A stretch of DNA of 60,274 nt from Haloferacaceae archaeon B1-Br10_E2g22 (GTDB lineage: Archaea; Halobacteriota; Halobacteria; Halobacteriales; Haloferacaceae): contig LKML01000003.1 of assembly GCA_001563795.1 (NCBI GenBank), positions 1-60,274 on the forward strand, in the 5' to 3' direction. Position numbers and translations under genes: made by a program. The stretch's first letter is position 1. Each line of letters starts with the position of its first letter. The notes below the pieces were generated by a model that was not told the DNA's origin, did not search any database, and saw only the letters and a program-made list of their open reading frames with translations. This document shows, piece by piece, positions 48,685 to 60,274 of this stretch.

Positions 48685-48722
48685 GACGAATGAACTAAGT
48701 GCTCGCTGTCGAACCAGCAGGT

Positions 48723-48905
48723 ATGGAAACCGGCTCAGTCGACTCTGATAAAGCAATCGGGATTTCGATGGCGTTCGGCCTTCTGGCACTGCTTGGGGCG
48801 CTGTTGATGTTCGGCGGTGAGACACAACTGCTGCGAGCCTGGGGCTTTGGGGCGGCAATGATTGCCGCTGGCCTCTGTGTAGTCGTCATCCAACTCTACG
48901 AGTAG
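48723..48905 (+). CDS. 60-residue two-span membrane protein
   Basis: METGSVDSDKAIGISMAFGLLALLGALLMFGGETQLLRAWGFGAAMIAAGLCVVVIQLY: an acidic head, then two short hydrophobic helices joined by a GGETQLLRAWG turn. Small proteins of this pattern are conserved in haloarchaea. ATG 48723 is used; the extension to 48699 overlaps the region after the PhoU stop and adds only eight residues. Confidence 0.65.
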   Translation: METGSVDSDKAIGISMAFGLLALLGALLMFGGETQLLRAWGFGAAMIAAGLCVVVIQLYE

Positions 48906-48957
48906 CTCCCGTTTGTGGACGTAATTGTTAAGCCACTCACAGCCGTATTACTGTCCG

Positions 48958-49182
48958 ATGACCACCTACACCGACGAGGAACAACGCATCGTCGCCTATC
49001 TGCGCGACAGCGTCTCGCGTGGCGAGCGATACTTTCGGGCCAAAACCATCGCCGAGGCCATCGGGCTTTCCTCCAAGCAGGTCGGTGTGCGGCTGCCGCA
49101 GTTGGCTGAAAAGTCCGACGACGTTAAAATCGAAAAATGGAGCCGTGCGAAATCGACGACCTGGCGAGTCACCCCGGAGTAG
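48958..49182 (+). CDS. Small winged-helix DNA-binding protein
   Basis: A 74-residue protein that is essentially one winged helix-turn-helix. EEQRIVAYLRDSVSRGERYFRAKTIAEAIGLSSKQVGVRLPQL is the helical part, and VKIEKWSRAKSTTWRVT the wing. The recognition helix would be SSKQVGVRLPQLAE. Small stand-alone haloarchaeal wHTH proteins of this type are common and uncharacterised. ATG 48958 chosen; the frame is open from 48925. Located between the small membrane protein and the SRPBCC gene. Confidence 0.75.
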   Translation: MTTYTDEEQRIVAYLRDSVSRGERYFRAKTIAEAIGLSSKQVGVRLPQLAEKSDDVKIEKWSRAKSTTWRVTPE

Positions 49183-49228
49183 CCCGTTACCACGCCCTTT
49201 TTAGCCTCTGTGCGTCTATTCGATAGCA

Positions 49229-49657
49229 ATGACAGTCCGTGTTTCGCGGACCTTCGAGTTTGATGTCCCTGGCGAGCGTGTCTGGGAGTTCATTGCCGAC
49301 CCCGAAAAGCGAGTGGGCGCGATCAGCGTCGTCGACTCGTATGAACTTCGCGGCGATACTCGAGCAATCTGGCATGTCAGCCTGCCGATTCCACTCATCA
49401 ACTCGACGGTTCAAGTCAAAACCGAAGACATCCACCGAGAACCACCAACCAGCGTGAAGTTCATCGGCCGCTCGAAGGCCATGGAAGTCACTGGTGAACA
49501 CACAATCGAGACGACATCAACAGGCTGTACGCTCACAAACGAGTTCGTCGTCGACGGCAAACTCCCCGGAGTCGAACGGTTTTTCAAACGAAACCTCGAC
49601 AGCGAGATGGATAATCTCGAGGCCGCCCTACGGGCTGATTTCGAAACAGACGCATAA
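49229..49657 (+). CDS. SRPBCC (START-like) domain protein
   Basis: A 142-residue helix-grip protein with a typical start VRVSRTFEFDVPGERVWEFIADPEKRVGAI, a beta-sheet core, and the long C-terminal helix GVERFFKRNLDSEMDNLEAALRADFE that closes the ligand cavity. It resembles the CoxG/carbon-monoxide-dehydrogenase-subunit-G branch. Ligand unknown. Its stop TAA shares a base with the ATG of the next gene, so the pair is translationally coupled. Confidence 0.88.
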   Translation: MTVRVSRTFEFDVPGERVWEFIADPEKRVGAISVVDSYELRGDTRAIWHVSLPIPLINSTVQVKTEDIHREPPTSVKFIGRSKAMEVTGEHTIETTSTGCTLTNEFVVDGKLPGVERFFKRNLDSEMDNLEAALRADFETDA

Positions 49658-50472
49658 TGCATCTGGCAGTCGTCCAACTCGAGATTACGCCTGGTGAGCC
49701 CGAAACTAATCTCTCGAGGGCAGCCGAGGCGGTCGCAAACGCAGCCGAAACCGGAGCCGACCTGGTCGTGTTGCCCGAACAGTTCGTGGTCGGATTTTTC
49801 GCATTCGATGCGTATCGGACGCATGCGGCCGGGCTCGACGAGAGACGCTTCGAACGGCTGGCAGAACTCGCTGCTGACAACAACATCGGGTTGGTCGCCG
49901 GAACCACTGTCGAAGATCTTGCGGCCAGCGCGGCAGCGGGCTACGATGTGCCTGCTGCCGAAGGGTATGCCAACACGGCCGTCTTTTTCGACCGCGAGGG
50001 CACACGCCGGGGCGTCTACCGAAAACATCACCTTTTCGGCTACGAATCGACCGAGGCCGAACTGCTCGTGGCCGGCAACTCAGTTGGCGTCGTCGACTTC
50101 GAGGGACTGTCGGTGGGGATGACAACCTGTTATGATCTGCGATTTCCCGAGTTGTACCGGGAGTTGCTTGAGAAGGGTGCAGAACTCATTGTCGTCCCGA
50201 GTGCGTGGCCCTACCCCAGAGTCGAACACTGGAAAACCCTGGGGCGGGCCCGCGCAATCGAAAACCTCTGTTATGTGGCGACCGCCAACGGGTCGGGACG
50301 GTTCCCTGCGGCCGACAGCCAACTCTGTGGCCGTTCGACGGTGTACGATCCGTGGGGAACGACACTGGCCGGCAGCGGCGAGGAACCAACAGTACTGCAC
50401 GCAGAGATCGACCCACAGCACCTCGAGTCGATTCGAGCGTCGTTTCCGGCGGTGGATGACCGACGGCGGTGA
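49657..50472 (+). CDS. Carbon-nitrogen hydrolase (nitrilase superfamily)
   Basis: A 271-residue amidase-type enzyme with the complete catalytic triad. Glu lies in VVLPEQFVVG (about residue 42), Lys in YRKHHLF (about 127) and Cys in GMTTCYDLRFPELYREL (about 156). The size fits the omega-amidase/N-carbamoyl-type group. It hydrolyses a C-N bond in a small amide; the substrate is not evident. Coupled to the SRPBCC gene. It is followed by about 500 bp of non-coding DNA. Confidence 0.92.
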   Translation: MHLAVVQLEITPGEPETNLSRAAEAVANAAETGADLVVLPEQFVVGFFAFDAYRTHAAGLDERRFERLAELAADNNIGLVAGTTVEDLAASAAAGYDVPAAEGYANTAVFFDREGTRRGVYRKHHLFGYESTEAELLVAGNSVGVVDFEGLSVGMTTCYDLRFPELYRELLEKGAELIVVPSAWPYPRVEHWKTLGRARAIENLCYVATANGSGRFPAADSQLCGRSTVYDPWGTTLAGSGEEPTVLHAEIDPQHLESIRASFPAVDDRRR

Positions 50473-50969
50473 CCACAACCAGGGGACGGTGCATTTATCC
50501 GTTTGACCGACAAACCTCCGATGCCGACGCATTGACGCTTTTCTCGTCACCGTCGGCAGAACGCTGCCGCGCCCATCCCACTCACCCGGGTCTGGTCGGA
50601 CCCACAAGACGAACCGAGGATTCGGGGGCCTCCTTGGTTCGTTTTCGCCCGCCTTCATGTGTGCTCCGAGAAAATTGGAGAGACCGAGTGCCGTCTACGG
50701 CGGTGTATAAAGCATATATATAATTTAACGGTCTGTATGAGGGCTTATAACCTAAATTATATGTTGACTCGTACCATGGCTACCAGTAGATCACGAACGG
50801 AGGTGAAAACACGTTCACAGACTTCCAGTACATCGACGGCATCCTCGCTGCATCCAGATCTGTCCGTTGACGTACATTCACGGTACCCGTGGCAGCTCGG
50901 ACGAACGCTGGGAGGTTCGTTCGTCCGATATCCACCCCCACTCCGTCTGTTCAGCCTCCCGTTTTGTTC
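50473..50969. ncRNA. 500-bp non-coding stretch with strong hairpins; candidate ncRNA locus
   Basis: No haloarchaeal-like gene is visible. Left half: nested hairpin TGCCGACG/CGTCGGCA enclosing TGACG/CGTCA (50522-50558), GGGTC/GACCC (50588-50603), and an 11-bp hairpin CGAACCGAGGA/TCCTTGGTTCG (50610-50641) followed by TTTT. Centre (50702-50760): very AT-rich, with TATA-like TATAAAG, TATATATAA and TTATAA. Right half: perfect 10-bp hairpin CGGACGAACG/CGTTCGTCCG (50898-50927), then T-rich DNA. I could not match RNase P RNA or SRP RNA core motifs. Boundaries and strand are unknown. Confidence 0.4.
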
Positions 50970-51254
50970 TTACCGGCGAATTTCGAAACCCTCGAGTCCT
51001 GTTGGCTCTTCGGTCGTCCGTTCGACAGCCTCGACACTAGCGGCCCGTGATCCGGTTTTACACCACTCGATCATCACCTCAACAGCCGGCTTCGGCCCCT
51101 CAAAAACAGCCTCAACACGGCCGTCTGTGCGGTTTTTCACCCAGCCGTCGATACCTTCCGTGCGGGCTTTTTCGCGTGTACTGGCTCGATAAAAGACGCC
51201 CTGGACATGACCACTCACGTAGACGTGCGTGCGAACACGGTCGGAGTCGCTCAT
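50970..51254 (-). CDS. acyP: Acylphosphatase
   Basis: Hydrolyses acyl phosphates such as acetyl phosphate. The 94-residue protein has the signature VSGHVQGVFYRASTREKA with the catalytic Arg. WVKNRTDGRVEAVFEG carries the catalytic Asn, and the C-terminal strand ends FEIRR. ATG 51254 (MSDSDRV) is preferred; the frame extends nine residues to 51281 without homology. It is divergent from the phosphohexomutase gene, with about 77 nt between starts, and its 3' end faces the hairpin region. Confidence 0.94.
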   Translation of the reverse strand: MSDSDRVRTHVYVSGHVQGVFYRASTREKARTEGIDGWVKNRTDGRVEAVFEGPKPAVEVMIEWCKTGSRAASVEAVERTTEEPTGLEGFEIRR

Positions 51255-51331
51255 ACAGCTTATGTGGATGCGATTGCTCATAAATTCGGGCCACCCCGGC
51301 CGGTTTTAACCGTCGGGCATCGACAGTAGGT

Positions 51332-59403: not shown

Positions 59404-59426
59404 TCCCGCGCCTGGAAGACGCGGGA
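59404..59426 (-). ncRNA. Terminal hairpin of putative omega RNA (reRNA)
   Basis: A 7-bp stem with 9-nt loop immediately 3' of tnpB. In IS200/IS605 elements the RNA from the tnpB 3' end to the element boundary forms the guide-carrying omega RNA. Only the terminal hairpin is clearly visible; the extent into tnpB is unknown. Confidence 0.45.
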
Positions 59427-59447
59427 ATCCCGACCGCCGTTGGGATA

Positions 59448-60274
59448 TTAGGGTTCGCGGTTCACAACCTGCTCTCGTGGGGCGAAACAGCCCTCACTAC
59501 GGTCGAGCAGATGAACCGCTGGCTGTGCCAACCAGCCGTTATCCCTATCGCCGCCATCTGTGGCGAGACTCGGGAGTACCTTTTGCCGAATGTTCTCTGC
59601 ACCGTTCACGTCTGCGTTCGCAACCGTGTCGCACGCCTCACACACGTACAGTCCACGTTCGACACGCTGGTTGTCGTCAGTGTGACCGCACGCCGAACAC
59701 GACTTCGACGTGTCACGTTCCGACACCAACTCAACGTCGATACCTTCGGCTTCTGCTTTGTAGTCCAGAAGCGTCGTAAAACGGTCGAACGCCCACCCGT
59801 GCAAGTCGAGATTGCCGTGATCGCCCCAGTTGCGTGGTTCGCCGTTCTGGTCGTCCTCTCGGATGCCGCCGAGATCACCAACCACGAGTGTTCCAACACA
59901 TCGTTCGACGCATTCCTCTACGATTGCTTTCGAGAGCGTGTGCAAGAAGTGCGTCCGACGACCCGTTCGCGTCCGGTCAATCCGAGTAGCTTCACGAGAC
60001 GAGGCATCGTCGCACTTGGCTTTCTTTTTCGTGAAGTAGTATTCGTCCTCTTTGAGTGCGCCACCGGGATACAACACCGACTCGCCGCCGAACGAGACCG
60101 CGGCGAAGTTACAAATCCCGAGGTCAACACCGGCCACCTCGTCGCCTGGCGGTTCCGGGTCGATGGTGGTGCGACAGACGAATTGTAACCGCCATTCGTC
60201 GCGCTTGTAGACGGCGCGAACCTGTTGAATGTCCCACTCGGTCAACTCAACATCCGGGCGAGTCTGGTACTCGC
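59448..60274 (-). CDS. tnpB: TnpB (RNA-guided nuclease family), N-terminus outside window
   Basis: At least 275 C-terminal residues of an OrfB/TnpB protein; the frame stays open to the window edge. RuvC-I Asp is in VAGVDLGICNFAAV. The RuvC-II position reads LVVGDLGGIREDD, with Gly where TnpB normally has the catalytic Glu. Zinc-finger cysteines CSAC and CEAC and the RuvC-III Asp (ANADVNGAENI) are present. TnpB proteins are omega-RNA-guided endonucleases that help retain the element. A possible internal start at 60245 is a TTG and not real. Confidence 0.88.
   Translation of the reverse strand, partial: EYQTRPDVELTEWDIQQVRAVYKRDEWRLQFVCRTTIDPEPPGDEVAGVDLGICNFAAVSFGGESVLYPGGALKEDEYYFTKKKAKCDDASSREATRIDRTRTGRRTHFLHTLSKAIVEECVERCVGTLVVGDLGGIREDDQNGEPRNWGDHGNLDLHGWAFDRFTTLLDYKAEAEGIDVELVSERDTSKSCSACGHTDDNQRVERGLYVCEACDTVANADVNGAENIRQKVLPSLATDGGDRDNGWLAQPAVHLLDRSEGCFAPREQVVNREP

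Follow-up and report, generated by a model that had tools for sequence, protein, structure and literature searches.

In a window comprising the whole 60,274-nt stretch of DNA analysed, positions 50520–50650 of the plus strand probably (at about 0.7) encode a small RNA from an order-wide family that includes sRNA500 of Haloferax volcanii, most likely a regulator acting in trans after transcription. The predicted gene occupies the left part of a 497-base intergenic gap between a carbon–nitrogen hydrolase gene ('amidase', 49657–50472, plus strand) and an acylphosphatase gene (50970–51281, minus strand). The source genome (G000) is a 2.37-Mb draft whose genus we took to be Halohasta, and three other Halohasta genomes were compared with it. 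An earlier note on this DNA had claimed four hairpins in the gap, and all four are present, at 50522–50558, 50588–50603, 50606–50645 and 50897–50928; the TTTT end that it gave to the left three closes the hairpin at 50606–50645. We regard these three as almost certainly a single plus-strand small RNA gene, hereafter element A. The left 131 bases fold more clearly than their shuffles (z −2.86; 2 of 200 shuffles as good), and the gap as a whole is unremarkable, doing only somewhat better than shuffles on either strand (z −1.73 on plus and −1.35 on minus). The weight of the case is carried by conservation rather than folding energy.

Promoter and anatomy of element A

Immediately left of element A lies a promoter (50485–50499, plus strand) made up of a BRE-like stretch and a TATA box, TTTATC (50494–50499), followed by a −10 'WW' element, AA in the window (50512–50513, plus strand). 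In distinct loci the TATA box stands at one distance from the first hairpin, with T in 100% and 98% at its first two positions and exclusively A or T at the next two. These loci also share the G-rich BRE position and the WW at −10/−9, the first W being T in 61% and A in 33% and the second A in 87%. A strict TTTAT-like expression occurred at the promoter position in 79 of 87 loci against a background of 0.19%. Of 18 further matches fetched from within the order, 17 also had the hairpin loop and, at the expected distance, a T-rich box. The structure models used to collect loci (R1 and R2, below) hold no upstream sequence, yet the loci share this promoter. By its letters, the element corresponds to the haloarchaeal promoter type outlined in the available text of PMC4983044 (TTWT, BRE and −10 WW), and the transcript should begin at the foot of the first hairpin, at about 50520. 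This start is predicted to within about 3 bases; the 3′ end is uncertain. A scan for sigma-70-type promoters found none, as expected for archaea. Two marks of an intergenic sRNA are thus in place: element A has its own promoter, and a conserved ORF is absent.

The predicted RNA opens with hairpin H1 (50522–50558, plus strand), in which an outer stem of 8 bp (50522–50529/50551–50558) and an inner stem of 5 bp (50533–50537/50545–50549) carry the apical loop CUUUUCU (50538–50544), fixed across loci except for its last base. Base composition and the fold indicate that H1 is followed by a C-rich, mostly unpaired linker (50559–50587, plus strand); over 87 loci, the 28 nt past H1 are 47% C and 22% G, against 33% each in the control. 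Beyond the linker, the fold predicts a small middle hairpin of 6 bp (50588–50603, plus strand), which by eye is kept in the other Halohasta genomes (L002–L004), and then hairpin H2 (50606–50645, plus strand), whose 15-base arms are 87% complementary and which has a G-rich loop and a terminator-like TTTT end.

H1 covaries across the order

Covariation across relatives, which the earlier note had named as a check, is seen in the 5′ hairpin over 85 distinct sequences. In an alignment fitted to the tested structure, which favours that structure, 95.8% of cells were paired, compared with 17.9–69.2% when the partner was slid by one to three columns; 7 of the 12 pairs had changed on both sides, giving 52 double-changed cells versus 16.0 in shuffles. 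Haloferax-type loci, for instance, have GGCG/CGCC in place of GACG/CGUC, and another change is from UGCCGAC/GUCGGCA to UGCCGG/CCGGCA. All 92 alignment rows and 17 further loci have either CUUUUCU or CUUUUCA as their loop.

Alignment across the order extends only over the first 42 nt, and the 3′ half differs by clade. Within it, GGGGTC occurs 50–140 nt downstream in 27 of 87 distinct loci, 18 of which have it adjoining an 8-nt stem in which 7 or more positions pair, and GGGGTCC turns up in 26 of 86 loci where 2.0 would be expected. The H2 alignment used 17 of these 18 loci (15 distinct rows), the one with a shifted register being excluded. Both partners had changed in 7 of its 8 pairs, a count that leans towards structure because rows were partly chosen for pairing. 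The window's H2 carries GGGGGCC, and the covarying stem was seen in loci of other genera with GGGGTCC. A tail motif, CGCCTC, also recurs (46 of 86 loci versus 16.3 expected).

Distribution of the family

BLAST of the gap against 99 genomes, its own included, matched 17. Besides the genome itself, 15 matched the left part of the gap, most only around 50520–50560; the three other Halohasta genomes matched as far as about 50644–50650, with 50484–50650 conserved there. The seventeenth match, in G077 from another family (L016, 1501–1526), covers 25–26 bases elsewhere in the gap (about 50938–50962) at 96% near-identity and is possibly due to chance.

A pattern scan of a named genome collection returned 43 stretches, 38 of them archaeal, from Halonotius, Haloquadratum, Halorubrum, Halarchaeum, Halogeometricum, Halopenitus, Halobellus, Haladaptatus, Halomicrococcus, Haloplanus, Halohasta, Haloparvum, Candidatus Halobonum and metagenome-assembled genomes. 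The five bacterial stretches (two Pseudomonas, one Burkholderiales and two Opitutae/Opitutia) were dropped before alignment, as were 10 archaeal ones that repeated loci already in the set, one of them incomplete. Model R1 was built from 44 hairpins (alignment A1), all picked by the exact letters GACGCTTTTCTCGTC and 28 also by TGCCGA; because every row was selected by those letters, A1 cannot show variation at GACGCTTTTCTCGTC. Alignment A4 added 48 rows from the better-scoring R1 matches to the 44 of A1, and model R2 comprises these 92 examples of the 5′ hairpin alone. Calibration was short, and E-values are therefore rough.

At E ≤ 0.1, R1 matched 301 of the 392 genomes of the order. R2 at E ≤ 0.002 matched 302 of 392 (279 of 344 of good quality; 83 of 95 genera), leaving 90 of the 392 without a match at that threshold, and nearly every matched genome carried a single copy. 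Within the window's own family, the sole unmatched genome in a kinship-sorted listing was G341. The window's R2 match (50520–50560, 54.6 bits) contains both the hairpin and the loop CUUUUC(U/A). A sample of 246 genomes from the phylum gave 43 with an R2 match at E ≤ 0.01, 41 of them within the order. The two outside it are attributed to chance: G518 lacks both loop and promoter, and G564 has the loop letters without the promoter. The 18 in-order matches read individually had middling to weak scores; one of them, in G075, has neither loop nor promoter and is likewise dismissed. The next four R1 matches in the window's own genome (at most 22.7 bits) lack the CUUUUC loop and are apparently chance.

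The earlier note proposed structured non-coding RNA that it could not place in a known family, and the analysis supports both points. Searching the whole window against Rfam 15 yielded no family at or above its gathering score over element A, RNase P and SRP RNA included. A 651-base stretch searched at E up to 10 and 8 loci searched at E up to 0.5 gave chance matches only, and a search of 20 loci gave no family match. A weak sR48 (RF01132) match (16.2 bits versus a gathering score of 40) lies on the opposite strand inside the acylphosphatase gene (50981–51035) and was set aside as chance. Near the window's end, 59404–59581 (minus strand) matches the Rfam sense overlapping transcript RNA sot0042 (122.1 bits, E 2.1e-31); such RNAs accompany IS1341/TnpB-type transposase genes.

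The Haloferax member is very probably sRNA500

Three loci, L090–L092, which gene order suggests are from Haloferax, carry the covarying 5′ hairpin with the loop CUUUUC(U/A). From gene order and coordinates, the family's representative in Haloferax is very probably sRNA500 (HVO_1187s), placed by PMC3956466 at 1,080,188–1,080,342 on the forward strand of the H. volcanii chromosome (155 nt). In L092, the end of an aldehyde dehydrogenase (ALDH) gene lies 690 nt beyond the start of the model match, and a proline-dehydrogenase-like frame, recognized by eye, follows. The portion of PMC6801745 consulted puts HVO_1189 (aldH2) and HVO_1191 (a proline dehydrogenase homologue) at 1,080,889..1,084,135, so that the published ALDH-to-proline-dehydrogenase span is 3247 nt, compared with about 3244 nt in L092. 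Projected from the L092 spacing, rather than taken from a model match on H. volcanii sequence, the match would start at about 1,080,199, eleven nucleotides inside sRNA500.

According to the sections of PMC3956466 used here, sRNA500 was detected by RNomics, prediction and sequencing, as a separate RNA. Its deletion (Δ500) reduced swarming to 29% of wild type, the lowest value in table 2 of that paper, which also gives a growth yield of 129% in the presence of paraquat. In our literature search, which did not extend to older subscription papers on the sRNAs of H. volcanii, only PMC3956466 was found to name sRNA500.

Other candidate counterparts were discarded. The coordinates point to HVO_1187s in place of HVO_2908s (PMC10927574) and favour it over H225.2R (PMC3956466), and a guess of HVO_0894 was wrong. 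HVO_2908s is expected between HVO_2907 and HVO_2910, and the part of PMC8406309 consulted reports CdrS ChIP sites at unannotated H. volcanii start sites, one of them between these two genes.

A possible tandem element and the right-hand hairpin

The AT-rich stretch described in the earlier note is real (GC 0.38 in 50700–50799), although its role as a promoter between divergent RNAs did not hold up, since the element A promoter sits to the left of A. Both conserved elements read rightwards: with the left RNA's promoter on its left and the AT-rich core apparently serving a same-strand second element, the layout is tandem and not the divergent pair that the note had suggested.

This second element, B, appears to have the AT-rich core as its promoter. 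Its putative promoter region (50713–50763, plus strand) comprises the blocks ATATATATAATTTAA and TTATAACC (50745–50752) and a TATA-like TATATG (50758–50763), and the three blocks recur at nearly fixed spacing in all four Halohasta genomes. In the same genomes, GGAGGTGA (50799–50806, plus strand), a perfect Shine–Dalgarno sequence, starts 54–56 nt after the start of TTATAACC. We take GGAGGTGA to be fully complementary to the 3′ end of archaeal 16S rRNA; the putative ribosome-binding letters of element B are GGAGGUGA. By eye, no conserved ORF follows the motif in Halohasta or Halonotius-type loci. The element B pattern was found in 6 of 60 genomes, the four Halohasta plus G028 and G068, whose matches look unrelated in their matched letters. 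Five Halonotius-type loci, four of them Halonotius, have GGAGGTGACAGC or something near it at +322 to +350 from the hairpin, preceded in three of them (L005, L006 and L018) by a TATA-like box 43 nt upstream; these three together with L038 and L056 share a conserved stretch of about 240 nt (about +322 to +580). The Halonotius stretch has no Rfam match. By BLAST, the Halonotius-type element matched only G025 and G046, from one genus (about 240–254 nt, 86–89%), and no Halohasta genome, so any homology of element B between Halohasta and Halonotius would rest on position, promoter spacing and one motif.

The right-hand hairpin (50897–50928, strand unassigned) was perfect as claimed, with arms of 11 bases where the earlier note had counted 10. 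It lies 41 bases past the acylphosphatase stop codon, on the acylphosphatase strand, and may simply be part of that gene's 3′ region. BLAST against the three other Halohasta genomes did not recover it, and alignment judged by eye showed no conserved pairing.

Mode of action and alternative readings

The order of parts in the RNA suggests how it might work: after the covarying hairpin with its fixed loop CUUUUC(U/A) come a C-rich linker, another hairpin and an end rich in pyrimidines. We tentatively propose, as possible but well short of probable, a trans-acting regulator with its U-rich loop as a protein dock. Element A RNA would act post-transcriptionally in trans, the fixed hairpin docking a U-binding protein such as Lsm while mRNAs are bound by base pairing through the C-rich linker and tail. 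Lsm is a first guess because archaeal Lsm binds U-rich RNA (from the text of PMC10779274 available to us), because a title cited there (Maier 2015) reports that swarming is enhanced when the Lsm Sm1 motif is deleted, and because a U-rich loop and a loss of swarming in Δ500 coincide here. Simple antisense action of the loop was rejected: its complement, CGAGAAAAGC, was no commoner than the reversed control (71 versus 83 sites in 8 genomes). Thirty of the 71 sites were fetched, and besides the RNA gene itself two pairs were shared. The first, in an Orc1/Cdc6-like frame, links G160 with G001; the second, in a uS7-like frame, is confined to Halohasta. As both sit far inside conserved protein-coding frames, identified by eye, neither was counted as a target.

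That the loop is the most constant part of the RNA and its complement is not enriched would also fit a conserved RNA that titrates a protein through H1 as a sponge, with no mRNA pairing. We consider this rather unlikely, as the C-rich linker and the excess of the CGCCTC tail suggest a second active part. Bolder, and doubtful, is the idea of an ancestral single-copy RNA, order-wide, that might control motility and redox response through its fixed CUUUUC(U/A) loop, bound by a single partner (Lsm or some other protein), with the tandem RNA B of Halohasta, and its similarly arranged counterpart in Halonotius, as a ribosome decoy.

Gene neighbours bear on whether there is a separate transcript at all. 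An SRPBCC gene (PF10604) lies upstream in each of 16 loci compared, the window's own included, and among 76 loci with at least 1400 nt upstream, SRPBCC was found in 65, the amidase in 47 and DUF7123 in 62. In the window, 48699–49654 (plus strand) holds a conserved run of DUF7525, DUF7123 and SRPBCC (Polyketide_cyc2). Because element A sits just downstream of the SRPBCC and amidase genes on the same strand, and H2 closes in TTTT, it could be read as the 3′ UTR or terminator of their mRNA. We judge this very improbable: the element has its own promoter at a fixed distance, sRNA500 was found as an RNA in its own right (PMC3956466), and neither gene is upstream in 9 of the 76 loci, so the RNA is not merely their 3′ end. 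On the downstream side, 83 loci extend for 1500 nt or more, and 32 of them have a convergent ALDH gene. Since upstream and downstream neighbours vary, the RNA is not tied to one operon. ALDH faces the sRNA in, for example, L091, L095, L099, L100 and L101, and this neighbour has been lost in Halohasta.

Haloarchaeal mRNAs are often leaderless, and an AUG lies at or beside the predicted start of the window transcript, yet a leaderless message encoding a very short peptide (AUGCCGACGCAUUGA in the window) is scarcely credible, given that many loci have CUG, GUG, CGC or others in place of the AUG and that hairpin length shifts by amounts not divisible by three with the pairs kept. Equally implausible is that the stems, as inverted repeats resembling dimer sites, are DNA sites for a regulator protein, because stem letters vary with pairing kept while the loop stays fixed, and the element holds a fixed place behind a TATA box.

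Significance and comparison with known systems

The kind of RNA and its Haloferax member are already known; within the literature searched, the breadth of the family, its anatomy and the tandem element are new. The consulted text of PMC3956466 describes haloarchaeal sRNAs as very fast evolving, with 22 of 27 tested, sRNA500 among them, confined to H. volcanii. Plain BLAST can miss this family because few bases are fixed and the Haloferax inner stem differs by compensatory pairs. If our preferred reading of element A as a trans-acting member of the sRNA500 family is right, a family, a start site and a fixed loop can be assigned to an RNA whose deletion phenotype is already published; the family can be studied across many species and the RNA's partner sought; and other 'species-specific' archaeal sRNAs merit re-testing with structure models.

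Element A resembles the C/D box sRNA sR48 (RF01132) and other Rfam families as a small archaeal non-coding RNA. It shares with Lsm- and Hfq-dependent trans-acting sRNAs its own promoter, a U-rich loop, a terminator-like hairpin and single-stranded candidates for pairing, but carries its fixed U-rich stretch in a 5′ apical loop instead of a 3′ tail. The closest likeness is with sRNA500, similarly intergenic, of similar length and oriented alike with respect to the SRPBCC and ALDH genes; the two differ in that the Haloferax hairpin is of the GGCG/CGCC type and that of element A of the GACG/CGUC type. Whereas table 5 of PMC3956466 records sRNA500 in no other haloarchaeal genome by BLAST, the structure model used here follows the family through most of the order.
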